Assembly (NCBI RefSeq): GCF_000828085.3
Contig: NZ_JXCA02000022.1
Location: 355,137 to 418,515 of the forward strand
Reading direction: 5' to 3'
Source of the DNA: Scytonema tolypothrichoides VB-61278
GTDB lineage: Bacteria; Cyanobacteriota; Cyanobacteriia; Cyanobacteriales; Nostocaceae
DNA length: 63,379 bases
Shown: positions 1-59,356 of the stretch, one piece after another
Numbering within the stretch: the stretch's first letter is position 1
Layout: each line of letters begins with the position of its first letter
Translations under genes and position numbers: made by a program
Notes under the pieces: model-generated
Seen by the model: only the letters and a program-made list of their open reading frames with translations
The model's database searches: none
Told to the model about the DNA's origin: nothing

Positions 1-1010
1 TCAGTAAGCTAAATGCCGCTTGCCTACGGGTAAATTTAGACTGAGAGTTTTGGATTAACTCAACTAAAACCTTGATTGCAGTTGGGTTATTCTTGTCAAT
101 TTTCAGTAAGCTAAATGCCGCTTGCCTACGGGTAAATTTAGACTGAGAGTTTTGGATTAACTCAACTAAAACCTTGATTGCAGTTGAGTTATTCTTGCCA
201 ATTTTGTCTAAGCTAGATGCCACTTCCCTACGGGTAGATTCAGATTGAGAGTTTTGGATTAACTCAACTAAAGCGTTGATTGCAGTTAGGTTATCCTTAC
301 CAATTTTCCCTAAACTAGATGCTGCTCGCCTACGGGTAGATTCAGACTGAGAGTTTTGAATTAACTCAACCAAAGCGTTTATTGCAGTTGGGTTATCCTT
401 GCCAATTTCCCCTAAGCTAGATGCCGCTCGTCTATGAGTTTCTTCATCTTGAAAGTTTTGGATTAACTCAACCAAAGCGTTGATTGCAGTTGGGTTATCC
501 TTGCCAATTTTCCGTAAGCTAGATGCCGCTCGCCAACGGGTAGATTCAGACTGAGAGTTTTGGATTAACTCAACTAAAGCGTTGATTGCAGTTGGGTTAT
601 TCTTGCCGATTTTTTCTAAGCTAAATGCCGCTCGCCTACGAGTAGATTTAGACTGAGAGTTTTGGATTAACTCAACTAAAAATTTGATTGCAGTTGGGTT
701 ATCTTTGTCAATTTCCCCTAATCTTTCTGCCGCTTGCCTACGGATTTCTTCATCTTGAGAATTTTGGATTAACTCAACTAAAGCCTTGATTGCAGTTGGG
801 TTATCCTGGCCAATTTTTCTTAAGCAATATGCCGCTTGCCGACGGGTAAATTCATCTTGAGAATTTTGGATTAACTCAACTAAAGCCTTGATTGCAGTTG
901 GGTTATCCTTGTCAATTTCCCCTAAGCTTTCTGCCGCTAGCATACGGGTAAATTCAGACTGAGAGTTTTGGATTAACTCAACTAAAGCCTTGATTGCTTT
1001 TGTGCGATCC
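1..1010 (-). repeat. 102-bp tandem repeats encoding HEAT-like units
   Basis: Ten units with an exact 102-base period: the motif gattaactcaa (once aattaactcaa) starts at 53, 155, 257, 359, 461, 563, 665, 767, 869 and 971. Each encodes 34 residues of the type NPTAIKALVELIQNSQ followed by (S/D)xxTRRxAAxSLxKIG. No spacing slip occurs, so the frame is kept. The array continues beyond the left edge. Confidence 0.92.
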
Positions 1011-3026
1011 GTCTGTTGTATTGCTGTTTTGGCTTCTTCTTTTTTTGCAAAATAAAAATTAACACTCCACTTAACGATTTGTGCGACTATTGCATCTGCG
1101 TGGAGATAATCCTTACACTCAGCAATTCCCGCTCCGGCTAAAAAGTAGGCTCGATACCGATAAAAATTGTTGCACCCATCCTCAAACTTTCTCAACGCTT
1201 CAAGAAACAGCTCTTTCTGCTCCCTTTCCACATCCTCTCGCCCCAACCACAGCAAAATCACCTCTTTCCACTGCGGTTCAAAAATGCGGTAAGGCTTGTA
1301 CTTGTCTGAATTCTCTTTATCTTTTACAGGTTTATTTTTGTGTTCACGGGCTAAGAAAAAGTCCCAATCTGGAATTCCACACGCTGCAAAATATTCTTGA
1401 AACGTAGGATGGAAAAAGGCATAAACGGCTTCGTCAGTTTGAGAATCTCGATCTACCAAATTTAGCCAACCCAAATCACCGGCTAATTTGAACAGCTTTT
1501 CGTCTATTTCCTTTGCAAGACTTTCCCGCAAGCGAAATCTTGCTCGGCTGTCTATTCCTGCTACGGCTAATTTCCCCAGATAGACGTGCAATTCCTCCCG
1601 ATTCTTGACATCGTTGTGTTTCCACTCATAGAAATAGCGGCGGAACCTGTCGTATAATCCTGCTTTGGTTTTTGGCAATTCTGCTTGCTTATCCAAATAG
1701 AAAATCTGACACAACAGCGCCAACCTCAGCGGATTTTTGACTAATTCGCGGATGCGTTCTCTTCCAGTTTCTTTTAATTTCGCTTGTAGTTGTTCGCCTC
1801 GTTGTGGATTTTTGGCATCAGCAAACCAGTTCTGAATAAATTCGTCAATTTGCTCTGGCTGAAAATCCTGAGTGCGATATGTGTCAAACCCACTCAGCGG
1901 ATTGTTTACGCTAGCATCCCAGACATTCAGCCGACAAGTTAGCACCACCCGCGCCTGAGTCAGCCAGGAAGTGAGTTGTTTTTGAATTGTATCTAACGCC
2001 CGAACAGGTGAATCAAAACCCATCTCATCCACACCATCCAACAGCAGCCACACCCCACCCTGCTGGAAGCGTTTGATGAACTCTTGCTGAATCTGCGGCT
2101 CAATTTGCGACGTGACAACAACTTCAGGATGAGATAATCTCATCGCTTCTGGGAGCCATGTCTTGAGGAGATATTCTTCTAACGTCCTTTTTTCCAGACT
2201 AGCCAGAGAAATAAAAATGGGGAAGTTTTCAGTTTGTGACTTGATGAAACGAGCGATCGCCCCCAACAAAGTCGTTTTTCCTGCTCCCGGTTCGCCAATA
2301 ATCGCAACGTGCTTGTTTTTTCCTGTGGGAGTTTGCTCAATCACCTGTTGGAGAAACTCGTCATGTTGATAAATTTGGGCGATCGCTTCTTTCTCTACTT
2401 CATACACCTCATTTAGCTGACAATTTTTATCCATCTCCCGGCGAGACTGTTGTTTGCGTTCCACTAATCCCAGTGGTACATGAACATTCACCTCACATCC
2501 CATCTCAGTGACTTTCCGTCTTAGCCTCTGGGATTCTTGCTGCTGTTTCAGCATCGCATCGCAAACTTTGCGCCAGTCAATGGGAGTTAACTTTGTCCGA
2601 TCCTCCCCGTCGGACGACTGCTGTCATATTATCGTCTGGTTAATAGTTTGGTTATTGACTGTGCCTTGATTCACAACCCCAATTTTTTCTGCCAGCTTCG
2701 TCAGATTTTGGATAGTTGGTTGTTCAGACTTGAGGGTATTTTCTACTTCTTCGGCTGTTTGAGCCACTTTTGGATCTGCTTTGGCTGCTGCTTCCACTTC
2801 AACAACCGCTTTGGCAATTTCCGGATCTTTGTCTGCTGCTGCTTTCAGTTCTAGCACCGCTTGTCCATAATTTAATCGCTGCGGTTCATTTCCCTCTACA
2901 GCATCGGTTAGCAATGGCAACTTACTTTTACTGCGGAGTTGTTCGATTAAATTACGACTTTGTACCCATGCCACATCCCCAATATTTTCACCGACTTTCT
3001 CCAGTGATTTAGTCAAAAGTATGGTG

Positions 3027-6139: not shown

Positions 6140-6290
6140 CCCCCTGTAGTCCCACGCCAGATGCTACAAGTCGGCAGAGCCGGACGCCAGATACCTAGGT
6201 CGGGAGACCCTCCTACAGTACTGGCTCCCCAACGCACTGGCTCTCCTTGGCAAGGGGGGACGGCGAAGCCGGGGGGTAAATATGTTGCAA
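6140..6290. repeat. GC-rich intergenic repeat cluster (copy A)
   Basis: Between the kinase and the next gene. About 50 bases (reverse complement of roughly 6172-6240) read nearly the same as 58909-58962 inside the Omp85 gene: both contain ttggggagccagtactg, then aggaggg, then aggtatctggcgtccg. Internal inverted pieces occur (ccagat / atctgg). The rest of 6042-6403 holds no credible gene. Confidence 0.75.
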
Positions 6291-7298: not shown

Positions 7299-7560
7299 AG
7301 GGGTGTAGGGGTGTAGGGGAGCCACTGCCCTTCGGGTATGCCTTCGGCACGTCTTCGACGAACGCAGTCGCCTAGGTCGGGAGACCCTCCTGCAGCGCTG
7401 TCTCACCGTGCGCGCTTTAAGCGTTGAGGAGCCACTGCGGTGCGGAGGTTCCCTCCGTTGTAGACGCCCGGAGGGCGGCTTCCCGCAGGGTAGCATGTGG
7501 CGTGCATGTGGCGTGAGCCAGTACTTGATGAGGGTCTCCCGACCTAGGTATCTGGCGTGA
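7299..7560. repeat. GC-rich intergenic repeat cluster (copy B)
   Basis: A mosaic of short palindromic pieces. Recurrent words: ggagccactg, gtcgggagaccctcc, ttccctccgttgtagacg, and ctaggtatctggcgtg, which recur in the clusters at 6140, 26718, 37925 and 58909. An open frame crosses it on the minus strand, but its product is Arg/Pro-rich repeat translation and not a gene. Confidence 0.75.
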
Positions 7561-26678: not shown

Positions 26679-26717
26679 CCTTTATTGATGTGTAAAAATT
26701 TTTCCCTCTCCTTCATA

Positions 26718-26845
26718 AGGAGAGCCAGTGCGTTGCGGAGAGCAGCGCCGTGCCGGGGTTCCCCCCGTTGTGGCGACTGCGGAGGGTTCCCCTGAGGGTG
26801 CCACCTGGCGTGAGGGATGCCCGACAGGGCAGGGTGAGGTTTTAC
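26718..26845. repeat. GC-rich intergenic repeat cluster (copy C)
   Basis: Contains ccgttgtggcgactgcggag followed by ggttcccc; the same run (with one base different) is found inside the histidine kinase gene near 38224-38250. Also ggagagccagtgcgttg as in copies at 6210 and 39235. Convergent gap between the CDF gene and guaA. Confidence 0.8.
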
Positions 26846-35246: not shown

Positions 35247-36257
35247 TCATTTTGAATTTATAATTCCTTCAGAGGGAGTTAACTCATCTGGAGAAAGACC
35301 TTTTGATTCTAACCATTCATAATTGAAGATGCGCGACTGGTAACGAGAACCGCTGTCACACAAGATAGTGACAATGGTGTGTCCTGGTCCCATTTGTTTT
35401 GCTAAAGCAACTGCTGCAGCAACATTTATACCTGTGGAACCACCCATGAATAAGCCATCCTTCCGTAGTAACTGATAAACAACCTTTATGGCTTCCTTGT
35501 CATCAATCACAATAGCGTCATCACTAGGCGCGCCTTCCATATTGGCGGTAATACGACTATTGCCAATGCCTTCAGTAATAGAATTGCCTTCAATTTTGAT
35601 TTCGCCTGTTTTTATGTAGCTGTAAAGTCCGCTACCTTTTGGATCAGCGACAACGCATTTAATTGCTGGATTTTTTTCTTTCAAATACATTGCTACACCA
35701 GCAAAAGTTCCACCAGTTCCTGTTGAAGTGACCCAAGCGTCAACTTTACCATCTGTCTGTGCCCAAATTTCTGGTCCTGTAGTTTCGTAATGGGCGTGGC
35801 GGTTTGCTAAGTTATCAAACTGATTTGCCCAAATAGCATTTTCCATCTCGCCAGCTACTCTACCAGAGAGTTTGACATAATTATTGGGGTCTTTATAGGG
35901 TACAGCAGGGACAGGGCGAACTTCTGCACCTAATGCCCTCAAAGCATCCATTTTCTCTTGGGATTGAGTGTCAGGAATTATAATCAGGCATTTATAACCT
36001 TTAGCGTTGCATATATGTGCCAATCCAATGCCAGTATTACCAGCTGTTCCTTCTACGACTGTGCCACCAGGTTTGAGTAAACGTTTTTCCTCGGCATCTT
36101 GAATAATATAAAGTGCTGCCCTATCTTTAACGGAACCACCAGGGTTGAGAAATTCTGCTTTACCAAGAATTTCACACCCAGTTTCGTCACTAAAGCTGTT
36201 TAAACGAATAAGTGGTGTATGACCTACAGTATCTACAAAACCGTTTCTGATATCCAT
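35247..36257 (-). CDS. cysK: Cysteine synthase (PLP-dependent)
   Basis: O-acetylserine sulfhydrylase family, 336 aa. PLP lysine in NPGGSVKDRAALYI, cofactor phosphate loop TSTGTGGTFAG, substrate loop EGTAGNTGIGLAHI, and GGSTGINVAAAVALA. The C-terminal extension (RYQSRIFNYEWLESKGLSPDEL) is typical of the cyanobacterial/eukaryotic-type branch. The paralogue number in the genome is unknown, so another OAS-sulfhydrylase name is possible. Upstream region 36258-36688 has no operator I recognise. Confidence 0.93.
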   Translation of the reverse strand: MDIRNGFVDTVGHTPLIRLNSFSDETGCEILGKAEFLNPGGSVKDRAALYIIQDAEEKRLLKPGGTVVEGTAGNTGIGLAHICNAKGYKCLIIIPDTQSQEKMDALRALGAEVRPVPAVPYKDPNNYVKLSGRVAGEMENAIWANQFDNLANRHAHYETTGPEIWAQTDGKVDAWVTSTGTGGTFAGVAMYLKEKNPAIKCVVADPKGSGLYSYIKTGEIKIEGNSITEGIGNSRITANMEGAPSDDAIVIDDKEAIKVVYQLLRKDGLFMGGSTGINVAAAVALAKQMGPGHTIVTILCDSGSRYQSRIFNYEWLESKGLSPDELTPSEGIINSK

Positions 36258-36688
36258 GTTTAAACTTCTTGGTGGAGACTATGCTTTTGGTCATCAGGCG
36301 TGAGGCCTTATTGACTCTATACTGATTTTAGAGAGGTCTTAGTTCTAAGGATAAGATTTTGCCATACACACTCAAAAATTTTCAAACGTCAACCACCAAG
36401 TGCAGTGTAGTGCTAAATTCTATGGCTAAAGTGCAGCAGCAGTAGAATGCTTAAATTTTTATAAAAATTATTCTTAGAGTTTCTATCTTATGATTTCACA
36501 ATTTAGGAAACAAAATATGAACGTAAACAAGTGTAATTACTGAGCAAAAAAAATCTTGTTTATATCTTCAATATTAGCCCAGATTTCTAGAACTTTCACA
36601 GGAGATGATAGAAAAGGTGTGAGACTTCACTATTGAACTAAAATTTACACTTAAATTTTTAGCTTACGTTTTGTAAATAGCAAACATC
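36258..36688. other. AT-rich divergent promoter region
   Basis: Between cysK and the hybrid kinase. No gene, repeat or convincing operator; several poly-A/T runs. Confidence 0.5.
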
Positions 36689-39172
36689 ATGCTTCGCATA
36701 CTCCTAATTGATGACAACTTTGATGTGCACCTGTCGATAACACGGCAACTCAAGCAAGAATTTTCCCCAATAGAAGTTACCTCAATTATTCATGCTAAGA
36801 GTTTTGAGGAAGCGCTAGCAATAGGTGATTTTGATATTGCAATTACTGACTACTCTCTGTACTGGACTAATGGCTTAGAGGTTTTAAAAACCATTAAAGC
36901 AAGATATCCAAACTGTCCTGTCATTATGTACACTGATAGCGGCAACGAAGAAATTGCTGTTTTAGGGATGAAGTCTGGGCTAAGTGATTATGTATTAAAG
37001 GGAAGGCTAGAACTGCTTGTCATCGCAATTCGGGAAAGTTTAGAAAAGCAAACATCACTTGACGAGTATGCTGTTGCTGTTGAGCAATTGCGAATCAGTG
37101 AAGAGCGTTTAGACGTGGCAATGGAAGCTGCTCATCTGGGTACTTGGGACTGGAACATGATCACAAATCAAGTAATTTGGTCAAAAAATCATGAACAATT
37201 ATTTGGTTTAACTTCAGGAGGCTTTCTCGGAAGTTATGAATCATTTCTTTCCTGCGTTCATCCACAAGACAGAGAACAAGTTTCTGAAAATATAACCCAT
37301 GCCTTAGAAACAAAAACTGAGTACAACGGTGAATTTCGCGTGGTTTGGCCTGATCAAAGTATCCATTGGATTTTATCAAGAGGTAACTTTTATTACAACG
37401 ATGCGGGTGAACCTATACGAATGATTGGAGTCGTGTCGGACTTGACTGAGCGCAAGCAGCGGGAAGAAGAACTGGAGCGAGCAAATCGCTTAAAGGATGA
37501 ATTTCTTGCGATTGTCTCCCACGAACTTCGCACTCCTTTAAACGCAATTTTAGGTTGGGCACAGTTACTACGTAGCCGCAACTTTGATGAAGCAACTAGA
37601 AATCATAGTTTAGAAATTATTGAGCGCAGTGCCCTTCAACAGAACCAGTTAATTAATGATATTCTTGATACCTCTCGCTTAATGCGAGGGCAAATGCAGC
37701 TGTCTATATCTCCTATCAATTTAGTCAGTGTGATTGAGAACACGCTTAATACTCTACAGTTATCAGCAGAAGGAAAATCAATTACTTTGGAATCGGTACT
37801 AGAGCACTCAGTCGCGGTAGTGATGGGAGATGAAAATCGCTTGTATCAAATTGTTTGGAATTTACTTTCCAATGCAATTAAGTTCACCCCTGTGGGAGGA
37901 CGAGTGGAAGTGAGGCTGTCAATTAGCGCCTCGTCAAACTCCTGTGACTCACAACTCAACACTCAAGAACCCCAATCCTACGACACTTACGACAATGGGG
38001 GAGTTCGGGCTTCCCACGTCCAAGCGAGTCGCATGTGCGGGTTCCGCGACTTGAACCGACTGGCGTTGGGGTTGGGGAACTTCGGGCTTTCCACTCCTAG
38101 GGGTTGGGGGGCTTCGGGGTGCCTACTTCCAGGAGAACTCGAAGCCCCCACCCAGAAGCCAGCGCCCGGGGGTTCCCCACGCCAGTCCGCTCAAGTCGGG
38201 AAACCCGCCCACGCGGCTGGTTCCCGTTGTGGCGACTGCGGAGGGCTCCCCCCGTTGAAGCACCTGGTGTGGAGTCCCTCTAGTTCTGGCGATTGGCGTT
38301 GGGGATTAGGGGTCGAGGGGAACAGGGGACAAGACCCCCCTCTGGGTATCTCCTCCAAAGACGTTACGCGAGCACAGTCTCCTAGGACGGGAAATCCACT
38401 TGCTGGGCTGCCTCACCCCAACGCAGTGGCTTCTCAACGCTCACAACCTTTTGAAGTTCTAAGCGCAGAAAACTTCGGCTCAGACAACTGTTGGCAAAGC
38501 GCGGGCTTCTGGGCAGTCATTCAAGTCAGCGATACTGGTGAGGGCATCAATTCTGAGTTTCTACCCCATGTGTTTGAACACTTTCGTCAAGCTGATAGTA
38601 CAACAACACGTTCTAATAATGGACTTGGTTTGGGATTAGCAATTGTTCGACATCTCGTGGAATTGCACACAGGCATAGTTACGGCAGAAAGTCAAGGAAA
38701 AGGAAAAGGAGCAACCTTTACTGTCAAGCTGCCACTTATACAAGAGAATACACCACAGCCAAAAGTCAGTCGCGAAAGAACTTTTCATCACTCACAACTA
38801 AATGACGTACAAATCCTCGTGGTTGATGATGATACTGATACTTTGGATTTACTGCAAGAAATTTTGCAAGGCGCAGGCGCAAAGGTGACAACTGTTTCAT
38901 CCGCCAATGCAGCTTTACAAGTTTTGCAAGAATTCAAATTTGATGTACTCATTAGTGACATTGGCATGCCACAAACGAGTGGTTACGCTTTGATTCGTCA
39001 AGTCAGGGTCAAGGAGGTGGGGCAAACTCAGAAGATTGCGGCTGTTGCACTCACTGGGTATAGCACAGAAGAAGACAAATTTAAAGCACTGGAGGCAGGA
39101 TTCCACATTTTCTTGTCCAAGCCAGTTAATCCTGTAGATTTAATCGGTGCAATATCTAGCCTTTTGGAATGA
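36689..39172 (+). CDS. Hybrid histidine kinase (REC-PAS-HisKA-HATPase-REC)
   Basis: 827 aa. N-terminal receiver (RILLIDDNFDVHLS, Asp near 55 in ITDYSL, Lys in VLKGR), PAS/PAC (RLDVAMEAAHLGTWDWN to GVVSDLTERKQ), HisKA with the phospho-His in FLAIVSHELRTPLNAILGWAQLL, HATPase with N box NLLSNAIKFTP, then about 195 extra residues (413-607), then DTGEGI (G1) and GLGLGLAI (G2), and a C-terminal receiver (ILVVDDDTDT, ISDIGMP, SKPVNP). The extra part is Pro/Gly/Arg/Cys-rich and matches intergenic repeats, so it is an insertion between N box and G1. The frame is kept. Whether the kinase still folds is unclear; the loop position may tolerate it. Confidence 0.9.
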   Translation: MLRILLIDDNFDVHLSITRQLKQEFSPIEVTSIIHAKSFEEALAIGDFDIAITDYSLYWTNGLEVLKTIKARYPNCPVIMYTDSGNEEIAVLGMKSGLSDYVLKGRLELLVIAIRESLEKQTSLDEYAVAVEQLRISEERLDVAMEAAHLGTWDWNMITNQVIWSKNHEQLFGLTSGGFLGSYESFLSCVHPQDREQVSENITHALETKTEYNGEFRVVWPDQSIHWILSRGNFYYNDAGEPIRMIGVVSDLTERKQREEELERANRLKDEFLAIVSHELRTPLNAILGWAQLLRSRNFDEATRNHSLEIIERSALQQNQLINDILDTSRLMRGQMQLSISPINLVSVIENTLNTLQLSAEGKSITLESVLEHSVAVVMGDENRLYQIVWNLLSNAIKFTPVGGRVEVRLSISASSNSCDSQLNTQEPQSYDTYDNGGVRASHVQASRMCGFRDLNRLALGLGNFGLSTPRGWGASGCLLPGELEAPTQKPAPGGSPRQSAQVGKPAHAAGSRCGDCGGLPPLKHLVWSPSSSGDWRWGLGVEGNRGQDPPLGISSKDVTRAQSPRTGNPLAGLPHPNAVASQRSQPFEVLSAENFGSDNCWQSAGFWAVIQVSDTGEGINSEFLPHVFEHFRQADSTTTRSNNGLGLGLAIVRHLVELHTGIVTAESQGKGKGATFTVKLPLIQENTPQPKVSRERTFHHSQLNDVQILVVDDDTDTLDLLQEILQGAGAKVTTVSSANAALQVLQEFKFDVLISDIGMPQTSGYALIRQVRVKEVGQTQKIAAVALTGYSTEEDKFKALEAGFHIFLSKPVNPVDLIGAISSLLE
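37925..38509. repeat. Repeat-derived insertion in kinase ATPase domain
   Basis: About 585 bases, much GC-richer than the flanking gene. Contains ccgttgtggcgactgcggag and ggctcccc (match copy C at 26760-26790), gcgcccgggggttccccacg, and agtcgggaaacccgc; also several ggg-g-ttgggg words near 38060-38110. Length is a multiple of three. Confidence 0.8.
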
Positions 39173-39227
39173 GAAGAGAAAACTCAACAACTCCACAGCA
39201 GTTTGCATATAGTTCGGGAAATCTAAC

Positions 39228-39380
39228 GCCCAACGGGAGAGCCAGTTGAGGAGGTTGGAAACGTCGGTGCGGGACTGCATTCACTCGGCAGGGGTTCGGC
39301 AGCACAGCTTTACCCGACACTTCACCGACGAAGGGTTTCGTTGGGAAAGCTTACCTCCCCAAGGCAGTGACTCCTCATCT
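39228..39380. repeat. GC-rich intergenic repeat cluster (copy E)
   Basis: Starts acgcccaacgggagagccag, then ggaggttgg and ctccccaaggcagtgactcc. Shares the agagccag / gcagtgactcc word set with copies A-C. Lies between the kinase and dedA, which point toward each other. Confidence 0.7.
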
Positions 39381-40007
39381 CCGTATCTCCTCACCTTCCT
39401 TTTGCCGTGACTCCAACCATATGGGGACAGCAATCACAGCAGCTAGAATCACCAATGCTAAAATAGCAAATTGACTCACCCAAGTAACTAATTGTTCGAG
39501 GGAAACAATTCTTCCAGCAAAGAAAGCAAGTGTCACCATAACACTAGCCCAAGCGATCGCTCCTGCCAGGTTGTATATCAAGAATTTACCGAAGGGCATC
39601 TCAACAATTCCAGCAAGTGGTGCCGCCAAAATTCGCAGCAAAGCAAGAAAGCGTCCAAAAAACACTGCTTTAGAAGCATTTTCCGTAAATTGTTCTTTTA
39701 TAGTCAAAAGTCTAGCTTCGGAAATTCTAAACAACTTACCTAGGCGCACAAGCAAAGACCAGCCGCCAGTTCTACCAATCCAATAACCACAGATACCTCC
39801 CACGACAGCACCTGCAATCGCGTCAGCCAGAACGAGCCAGTAACTAAGTTCCTTACTACCAGCAAGAAACCCACCAACTAAGGTAACGGTTTCACCTGGA
39901 AGAGGAATGCCTAGATTCTCCAACAATATTCCCAAAAAAATTGCCCAATATCCATATTCATGAGCAACTTTCTGGATGTTTTCTAGTGATATGAACTCAA
40001 GAGACAT
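39375..40007 (-). CDS. DedA family membrane protein
   Basis: 210 aa, the VTT/DedA fold now linked to lipid carrier recycling. Family motifs: FLGILLENLGIPLPGETVTLVGGFLAG (re-entrant loop with the E and P), GAVVGGICGYWIGRTGG, FFGRFLALLRILAAPLAGI (the FxxRxxPxxR-type segment) and MPFGKFLIYNLAGAIAWASV. About five membrane helices. Ends in a short charged tail (SRQKEGEEIRR). Single gene. Confidence 0.92.
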   Translation of the reverse strand: MSLEFISLENIQKVAHEYGYWAIFLGILLENLGIPLPGETVTLVGGFLAGSKELSYWLVLADAIAGAVVGGICGYWIGRTGGWSLLVRLGKLFRISEARLLTIKEQFTENASKAVFFGRFLALLRILAAPLAGIVEMPFGKFLIYNLAGAIAWASVMVTLAFFAGRIVSLEQLVTWVSQFAILALVILAAVIAVPIWLESRQKEGEEIRR

Positions 40008-57139: not shown

Positions 57140-59356
57140 CTAAAAGCGGTGACCGACACCAAAATGAACTCGGCTTTCTCCCTGGTCATTCAGCCCAAAA
57201 TCAGCCCGAATCAAACCTAGAGGCGAGTCAAAGCGCACTCCCGCACCATAACCAAAACCAGTACCAGGTTTGCCACGATCTCCTGCAGGGTTGCCTAATA
57301 CAGCCTCACCAGTACCTAAGTCTGAAGCAAAATCAGCAAAGAAGACGCCTCCTAGTGCTTGGACAATCGGGAAGCGATATTCTGCCGACGCCAACACATA
57401 AGTGCGACCACTACCCACATCACCGCCACCATAACCGCGTACTGAATTGGGACCACCCAAGTTAAAACTTTCATAAGGCGGTAAATCACCAAGGACTGTA
57501 CCAGCTTGGAGATTCAGGGCGAAGACTTGTGGTTTTTTGGATTCAAATAACTTTACAGGCATAAACTGGCTATAATCTGCCTTTATGCGGTTCATAGAAA
57601 TTTGTCCTTCCCCAAGAGGGATGGATTGTTCGGTGCTGAGTTTGAGAATAGAACCATTCGTTGGATTGAAGGGATTATCTCGCTCGTCTTTGGTGGCGCT
57701 TAAGGATACAGTTGTCAGGTCATCAATACCAGTTCCACTAAAAGACAAAGGATTTCCCTTTTCATCAGTTGGGGTAACTTTACCGTCGCGATCGCGAAGA
57801 CTAACACGACTATAATTGAACCCCAAGGAAGTATTCCAACCGTCTATCGGGCGCTGCAAGCTAACACCACCCCCAACTCGACCTTCCCGCACTCTATCGC
57901 CATTTGCCAATTTGATGTCTCCATCAAAAGTTTCAGAAAGTCCTCGCTTGCGGAACGCACTCACACTATAACCAAAGGCGTCTGGATTGGTTTCCCGATA
58001 AGGACTTGTAAATTTAGTATCAAATTGAAAATCACGCGCACCAACTTCAAGATTAAGACCGAAAATATCGTTAACGCCACCAACATTTTGATCTCGGTAA
58101 GTTAATGTACCAACTATCCCCTGATCAGCGTTATAGTTACCACCCAAATTAATAGAACGCGCCCCTATTTCCTTAACTTCGTAAACGACATCCAGCTTTG
58201 TCGCATCTCCTTCAAAAGCAACGTTGACATTCTCAAATAACCCTGTCCTATACAGTTGCTGTAAATCTTGTTTGACTAAGTTTTCTTGATAAACCTGTCC
58301 AGGCTTAAACTTAAGCTGTTGCTGCAAGAAATCTGTTTTTGTGCGCCCTTGCACTGGCTTACCTTTGTTATCAACTATTTTGCCTTCATCGTTCACAAAA
58401 CGAAACTTGATATTGTTGACAACACCTTCAGCAACATTCAAAGTCAGGATTCCTTCAGCGCTGGGTCTAATTGATATAACTCTTGCAACTTTATAACCCT
58501 TATCAGCGTACCATTTATTAATTTCTTGGACTGCTTGTTTCAAACCACTGGGACTGATGACTTTTCCTATTTGAGGTTGCAAGCGTTCTCTTGCGACTTC
58601 ATAACTCAACACGTTTGCCCCGGAAAGTTGTAGAGAACGCACAATGATTGGTTGTACTTGGAACTCTACACTTAAGCCAGTTGGCGTCGGACGGCTATTA
58701 ATACGAGCACCCGTAAATAAACCAGTCTCTAAAATTGCTTTGACATCTTTTTGTAACTGACTTTGACTGGTTTGTGCACCGACTTGAGTGTTGATGACAC
58801 TGCGAATCGCCTGCTGCAATTCCTCATTCGCCCCGACTATGTTCACTTCACTTGCAGTAACTACTAAATCATTACTAGTAGCTGGAGGAGACGATGAGTC
58901 CCCAGCGCCTTGGGGAGCCAGTACTGCAGGAGGGTTTCCCTCCGTAGGTATCTGGCGTCCGGGTTTCCCGACTTGAGGCGACTGGCGTGCAGATGAGGGA
59001 GATGAAAAAGTTATTTCCCTTGTCTCCTTCTCCTTTTGAGGACTTATCACCACTGATTTAGGACTACCGCCACTTTGCACATTACCGGATTTTTGAGAGA
59101 ATTGTCCAATAACTACTGTCTCTGGGGGTGCAATCGTTTCTATCCGAGCAGGCGTTTCTTCGGTCACTGGCACCACAACGTTATCAGGTTTTTCAGCTTG
59201 CTCAGAAGTATTCGAGGGTGCAGCAAATGCTTGCTGATGAGCATTGCCAGTTGCCAAAGTCACTAAAGTAAAAATCGCCGCAGAAGAAACTCGCATAATA
59301 AATAGTAGTCTAATGAACTGGGAGTTAGTTCGTACTTTCGTACTGAGGTTTGGCAA
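57140..59356 (-). CDS. Omp85/BamA-family outer membrane protein
   Basis: 738 aa. Signal peptide ending NAHQQAFA; a Pro-rich linker (about 40-150, in part repeat-encoded); POTRA domains about 160-400 (VVTASEVNIVGANEELQQAI, SLQLSGANVLSYEVARERL, GVVNNIKFRFV); C-terminal barrel with the conserved loop GGPNSVRGYGGGDVGSG and final RVHFGVGHRF ending in Phe. Inserts beta-barrels (or exports proteins) at the outer membrane. Two or more Omp85 copies are usual in cyanobacteria, so this may be a paralogue rather than the essential one. Divergent, 95 bases, from the LpxB-like gene. Confidence 0.92.
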   Translation of the reverse strand: MPNLSTKVRTNSQFIRLLFIMRVSSAAIFTLVTLATGNAHQQAFAAPSNTSEQAEKPDNVVVPVTEETPARIETIAPPETVVIGQFSQKSGNVQSGGSPKSVVISPQKEKETREITFSSPSSARQSPQVGKPGRQIPTEGNPPAVLAPQGAGDSSSPPATSNDLVVTASEVNIVGANEELQQAIRSVINTQVGAQTSQSQLQKDVKAILETGLFTGARINSRPTPTGLSVEFQVQPIIVRSLQLSGANVLSYEVARERLQPQIGKVISPSGLKQAVQEINKWYADKGYKVARVISIRPSAEGILTLNVAEGVVNNIKFRFVNDEGKIVDNKGKPVQGRTKTDFLQQQLKFKPGQVYQENLVKQDLQQLYRTGLFENVNVAFEGDATKLDVVYEVKEIGARSINLGGNYNADQGIVGTLTYRDQNVGGVNDIFGLNLEVGARDFQFDTKFTSPYRETNPDAFGYSVSAFRKRGLSETFDGDIKLANGDRVREGRVGGGVSLQRPIDGWNTSLGFNYSRVSLRDRDGKVTPTDEKGNPLSFSGTGIDDLTTVSLSATKDERDNPFNPTNGSILKLSTEQSIPLGEGQISMNRIKADYSQFMPVKLFESKKPQVFALNLQAGTVLGDLPPYESFNLGGPNSVRGYGGGDVGSGRTYVLASAEYRFPIVQALGGVFFADFASDLGTGEAVLGNPAGDRGKPGTGFGYGAGVRFDSPLGLIRADFGLNDQGESRVHFGVGHRF
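58909..58995. repeat. Repeat-derived segment in Omp85 linker
   Basis: ttggggagccagtactgcag, then gagggtttccctccg, then taggtatctggcgtccgg. Nearly the same as the reverse complement of 6172-6240 between genes. It encodes PSSARQSPQVGKPGRQIPTE and following residues of the linker before POTRA 1, in frame. Confidence 0.82.

Follow-up and report, generated by a model that had tools for sequence, protein, structure and literature searches.

A loop probably grown largely from dispersed repeats in the ATPase domain of a cyanobacterial hybrid histidine kinase that is probably active

The 63,379-nucleotide stretch of Scytonema tolypothrichoides DNA analyzed here (the window) encodes a hybrid histidine kinase with a greatly expanded loop inside its ATPase domain. 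We think it likely that this loop is translated, tolerated and probably disordered, and that it has grown stepwise, largely from the dispersed repeats of the genome, on a kinase that is probably active. The window lies in a 7.9-Mb genome, and the nearest orthologues of the kinase are found in Brasilonema, a filamentous cyanobacterium. The gene (36689-39172, plus strand) was delineated by its open reading frame and by Pfam, and encodes 827 amino acids in the order REC-PAS-HisKA-HATPase_c-REC; the HisKA, HATPase_c and Response_reg matches all lie above the Pfam cut-off. Together with these domains, the motifs HELRTPL, NLLSNAIKF, DTGEGI and GLGLGL mark the predicted product as a hybrid histidine kinase. 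The N box of the ATPase domain (NLLSNAIKFTP, 37859-37891, plus strand) and the G1 motif (DTGEGI, 38531-38548, plus strand) are both intact. Searched with Pfam, the whole genome gave 127 matches to histidine-kinase ATPase domains, and the domain of this kinase appears in two partial matches, covering profile positions 1-33 and 35-109.

The N box and G1 are separated by 214 residues, which is about 190 amino acids more than the usual spacing of roughly 23-25. A regular-expression search of the genome stretches examined found 42 ATPase domains, compared with the 127 genome-wide Pfam matches, and in the 41 others the spacing is 22-44 residues. By frame and GC counts, the expanded hairpin loop spans 197 codons (37919-38509, plus strand) and has a GC content of 0.60, versus 0.41 in the remainder of the gene. 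The initial annotation had stated that the frame is kept, and the reading frame is indeed open through the entire region and into an undamaged G1. The kinase frame has no stop codon within the 197 codons, and each of the five other frames has between four and eight. Alignment of the loop DNA with that of three orthologues (G001, G003 and G004) shows three indels, of 3, 3 and 204 nt. In the orthologues from Hassallia and Spirirestis, further frames of the loop are also stop-free, so the frame test is silent for those two. Pfam detected no domain within the loop and no intein in the kinase, and Rfam gave no match at E 0.1 or better inside the insert. Two candidate identities were rejected: a conserved inserted domain, as the loop sequence varies among lineages and Pfam is empty there; and a known structured RNA, as the sole Rfam match at E 0.1 or better in 36000-40000, to a microRNA model, falls beyond the insert at 37192-37244, scores far under the gathering score of that model and was taken as chance.

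The initial annotation had also matched this GC-rich sequence to intergenic repeats, and the match was borne out. The 19-mer it quoted matches window positions 26764-26792 (29 nt, 96.6%), and at least 44 further sites in the genome match the 585-nt loop stretch (best E 2.1e-16); this is a lower bound because scoring covered 40 of the 149 first-look candidates. Within a 1.48-Mb sample, which consists of 71 stretches picked around ATPase-domain genes plus the window and is therefore not random, the same 585 nt has eight matches to predicted intergenic DNA and four to predicted genes. As controls we used 300 random coding stretches of equal length, 289 of which had no intergenic match and two of which had eight or more, so the loop matches intergenic DNA beyond what chance would give. 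Gene predictions came from a home-made hexamer method, by which 76% of the sample is predicted to be coding. A repeat profile was built from a single intergenic copy while the kinase was masked; it produced a 49-nt GC-rich module with 50 matches in the sample at E 1e-3 or better. Only nine of these fall in predicted genes (two overrun a gene end and one is in a weak 80-codon prediction); thus, by the home-made gene calls, the family is dispersed and mainly intergenic. Ten close pairs of modules comprise four inverted and six direct pairs. Repeat and profile searches placed further relatives in the window, with no strand assigned: one intergenic copy at 6153-6255, two inverted modules spanning 198 nt in all at 7361-7558 and counted as intergenic, and an intergenic relative of the repeat units at 26710-26792. 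Separately, a tandem repeat with a 102-nt period occupies window positions 1-1116, within a predicted minus-strand gene.

The repeat-derived sequence in the loop is layered (all features on the plus strand). DNA alignment delimits a 204-nt (68-codon) block at 38134-38337 that has no counterpart in G001, G003 or G004 and that carries the strongest matches to genome repeats. Within the block lie a GC-rich module identified by repeat search (38178-38224, read as RQSAQVGKP...) and a second repeat unit recognized from its genome matches (38222-38271, gttgtggcgactgcggagg...), the intergenic copy of which is the one at 26764-26792. Directly downstream, at 38338-38417, repeat search and alignment reveal an older GC-rich copy common to G001, G003, G004 and B. 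bromeliae; it matches the module profile at only E 0.013, and its G003 counterpart does so at 5.1e-6 in a far smaller search. A repeat search also showed a long imperfect palindrome (38023-38222), the left arm of which sits in the part of the loop common to the orthologues, whereas the right arm belongs to the 204-nt block. The palindrome is predicted to form a long stem-loop: folded as RNA, 38020-38230 reaches -119.1 kcal/mol (z -5.24), with none of 200 shuffles equally stable, whereas the fold of the entire 585 nt is ordinary (z -1.27; 7 of 100 shuffles equally stable). B. bromeliae (G002), whose contigs break within the loop, also has the right end of the block. In a tree of the kinase minus its loop, the window clusters with G001, G003 and G004 (98/94), and G005 and G006 join this cluster (100/100); the block may be an acquisition of the window and B. 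bromeliae, or the others may have lost it. The initial annotation had described a single insertion of about 195 residues. The extra, repeat-derived sequence is there, but not as one event, given the layers and the 145-146 residues between the same motifs in G001, G003 and G004. Much of the loop is shared within the genus and is older than had been assumed, with the 204-nt block setting the window apart.

By alignment and a weak structural model, the insert appears to occupy the hairpin turn between the strand that follows the N box and the strand that leads to G1. In the ATPase fold of histidine kinases this turn lies away from the bound ATP. Among 124 ATPase-domain rows from this genome, the hairpin (profile positions 51-63) holds 27 of the 35 insertions of at least five residues, a count that merges overlapping loci and leaves out the present kinase and a few other domains divided by a long insert. 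When ten orthologous pieces were modelled with AlphaFold, the folded piece had predicted strands at residues 156-161 and 359-365, flanking a low-confidence stretch, with block-mean pLDDT values of 25-44 across residues 171-350; one short helix and two strands are drawn within the loop. The model is weak overall (mean pLDDT 50.4, pTM 0.26), and residues 370-396, a part of the core after G1, likewise fall below 50, so the probable disorder and the placement of the loop lean on the alignment. A Foldseek search with the model found histidine kinases at low TM-scores. PDB chain 7p8e_A, which we take to be a plant receptor kinase, has 59 unaligned residues between two matched parts, from the N-box strand to G1, indicating a long insert near this place in another kinase; the likeness is one of position alone and does not imply a repeat origin.

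Orthologues of the kinase differ widely at this turn. The distance from the N box to G1 is 25 residues in G027, 41 in Spirirestis, 60 in G045, 81 in G005, 89 in G006 and 94 in Hassallia, and rises to 145 in both G001 and G004 and 146 in G003, short of the 214 in the window. The N box, G1 and HELRTPL are kept in the window kinase and nine orthologues, as is G2 in the alignment; these ten rows were picked via the first three motifs and cover every genome with an orthologue match except the split G002. No orthologue match contains a stop codon. The initial annotation had considered that unrelated genera might carry the same conserved loop, which was not what we found: the loops of Hassallia, Spirirestis, G045 and G027 differ or are short. 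The Hassallia loop (231 nt) is made of a different dispersed repeat: the Hassallia genome holds 63 further matches to it, some adjacent to one another, and the G000 sample has four short ones; the loop does not match the GC-rich module model. The G045 loop (129 nt) terminates in a short common repeat, and nearly all of its 57 other matches fall in its last 40 nt. For the G006 loop there are six matches of 27-34 nt. Judged from these matches, the window and Hassallia show clear repeat capture; for G045 it is partial, for G006 weak. At E 1 or better, the DNA of the window loop does not match that of the Hassallia, Spirirestis or G045 loops, which argues that the fillings are independent. The loop of G003 has eight other matches in G005, which has a different kinase loop of its own, five in G006 and none in G045. 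As a proxy for the shared older part of the window loop, it has only two other matches in each of G001, G003 and G004, which counts against a largely repeat-derived origin. A separate feature of the G045 orthologue (L038) is an extra insertion of about 34 residues just ahead of the kinase N box.

Selection on the two parts of the gene was compared in ten orthologue pairs, three of them covering part of the gene; the 204-nt block is almost absent from this comparison and is without a complete partner in it. The dN/dS ratio ranges from 0.44 to 0.78 for the loop, against 0.22-0.52 for the remaining gene, and both dN and dN/dS are greater in the loop in every pair. We read this as a loop that is probably translated and loosely constrained on a kinase that is itself kept. 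Alternatively, the loop could be a selected element, for instance a docking or regulatory arm, which is more than mere tolerance. Its dN/dS is below one in 10 of 10 pairs, and the window, G001, G003, G004 and B. bromeliae have some conserved segments close to the ends of the loop (e.g., NFGSxN), as expected of such an arm. We nevertheless consider it unlikely, since both sequence and length vary by lineage, the turn of G027 is short and normal, and the loop evolves faster than the remainder in all pairs. Decay of the kinase, with the open frame a leftover, is less probable still. The insertion does fall within the catalytic domain and splits the Pfam ATPase match in two; however, purifying selection appears to act beyond the loop, the motifs are kept, and long open loops occur in several species. 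Thus, of the possibilities raised in the initial annotation, a damaged kinase is not supported, with dN/dS low outside the loop, and a tolerated loop agrees with the kinase frame alone being open and the catalytic motifs kept.

Two further explanations are highly improbable. Removal of the insert at the RNA or protein level, or its skipping by the ribosome, would be in keeping with the strong predicted RNA hairpin at 38020-38230, but the insert has neither an Rfam match at the threshold above nor a Pfam intein, and a removed insert would need no open frame. An assembly artefact is suggested by the break inside the B. bromeliae loop, which indicates that the region is hard to assemble, but the contig that holds the window is 650,664 bases long, B. 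bromeliae has the right end of the 204-nt block, and G001, G003, G004, G005 and G006 carry long loops of their own.

The observed repeat content, open frame, layering, kept motifs and differing fillings in relatives are consistent with our preferred reading of a tolerated loop that grew in steps. Repeats would land in the turn between the strand that follows the N box and the strand toward G1. Elements that are in frame and stop-free would displace neither of the two strands nor the catalytic motifs and so would survive, and out-of-frame insertions would be lost. The kinase, probably still active, would thereby have come to carry a long arm that is probably disordered.

Other genes also carry the GC-rich repeat family in frame, and the relatives examined lack it there, in line with the suggestion of the initial annotation that this is a mobile repeat with protein-compatible frames. 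A profile search and Pfam place one copy (58911-58988, minus strand) in the N-terminal linker of an Omp85 gene (57143-59356, minus strand), where it sits in a Ser/Pro-rich segment ahead of the POTRA domains and reads RQSPQVGKP, compared with RQSAQVGKP in the kinase block. The orthologues of G001-G004, the four in which the N-terminal region is whole, all lack this copy; the G005 and G006 proteins start too late for full comparison. A second hybrid histidine kinase (L098:15172-18339, minus strand) has two repeat modules in the linker between its ATPase and receiver domains. No such module was seen in this linker of G003 or G004, and the G006 frame stops early. Relatives that lack the element and keep the frame were therefore found for Omp85, for the second kinase and for the 204-nt block of the window kinase. 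The module is also in frame in an FAD-binding oxidoreductase with an N-terminal extension, a DDE-type protein and two TnpB-type proteins (OrfB_IS605; L130:695-1936 and L155:14257-15426), and a CheA-like protein contains a repeat match of unassigned family. In-gene copies fall either beyond the best Pfam stretches or at their margins, with an edge overlap of about two residues in the two TnpB-type proteins. When nine in-gene copies (E up to 0.034) were sorted by frame, three were in the sense, stop-free frame RQMPREGNPPAALAH (two of them in one Omp85 gene), three were antisense in one stop-free frame, and three were in frames with a consensus stop. A strong frame bias of the repeat was rejected given this even split; any bias is weak at best.

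That palindromic repeats can occur in frame in proteins is already established. The available part of PMC2229807 describes Rickettsia palindromic elements (RPE), which are also intergenic and occur in frame in conserved protein genes, with 19 reading frames containing them; an RPE-bearing guanylate kinase is translated and active, with altered substrate affinity. The likeness to RPE, which come from another phylum, is one of description and not of sequence. Unlike RPE as described in that part of the source, the case reported here involves a single hairpin with layers of repeats, unrelated fillings in different lineages and up to 214 residues. According to the available part of PMC3733652, clusters of GTAG- or CGTC-tagged REPs within ORFs encode 43 to 82 amino acids in Thauera and R. 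conorii, the recB genes of two Xanthomonas species hold different REPs at about one site, and tagged REPs are present in cyanobacteria; a histidine kinase, the host protein here, is not named in that part of the account. Inspection by eye of both strands of our 49-nt consensus found neither GTAG nor CGTC, although the true ends of the element may differ from those of the consensus. In open-licence literature surveyed at the level of titles and abstract openings, we found no cyanobacterial or histidine-kinase case of an in-frame palindromic repeat. What is new here is the untagged cyanobacterial family, the site in a catalytic domain, and one hairpin refilled across lineages.

Because some relatives hold other repeats at the turn, it looks like a spot where repeat DNA turns into protein with the enzyme not obviously destroyed. 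The orthologues form a graded natural series, from 25 to 214 residues, of repeat DNA becoming protein within a catalytic domain. Comparing those with short and long loops could show how non-coding repeats become protein and whether the resulting arms stay neutral. A bolder proposal, which we regard as doubtful, is that in cyanobacterial histidine kinases the turn is a standing acceptor site for repeats, filled independently by each lineage from its own repeat families, and that the arms tune kinase output or partner choice; if so, selfish repeats would be a source of variation in signalling proteins. Repeats of another kind, the heptamer type (TAACTGA- and GGGAACA-like), are very abundant in the G000 sample, for example at L132:19243-19415 and L119:15813-15976, and those in L119 adjoin GC-rich modules.
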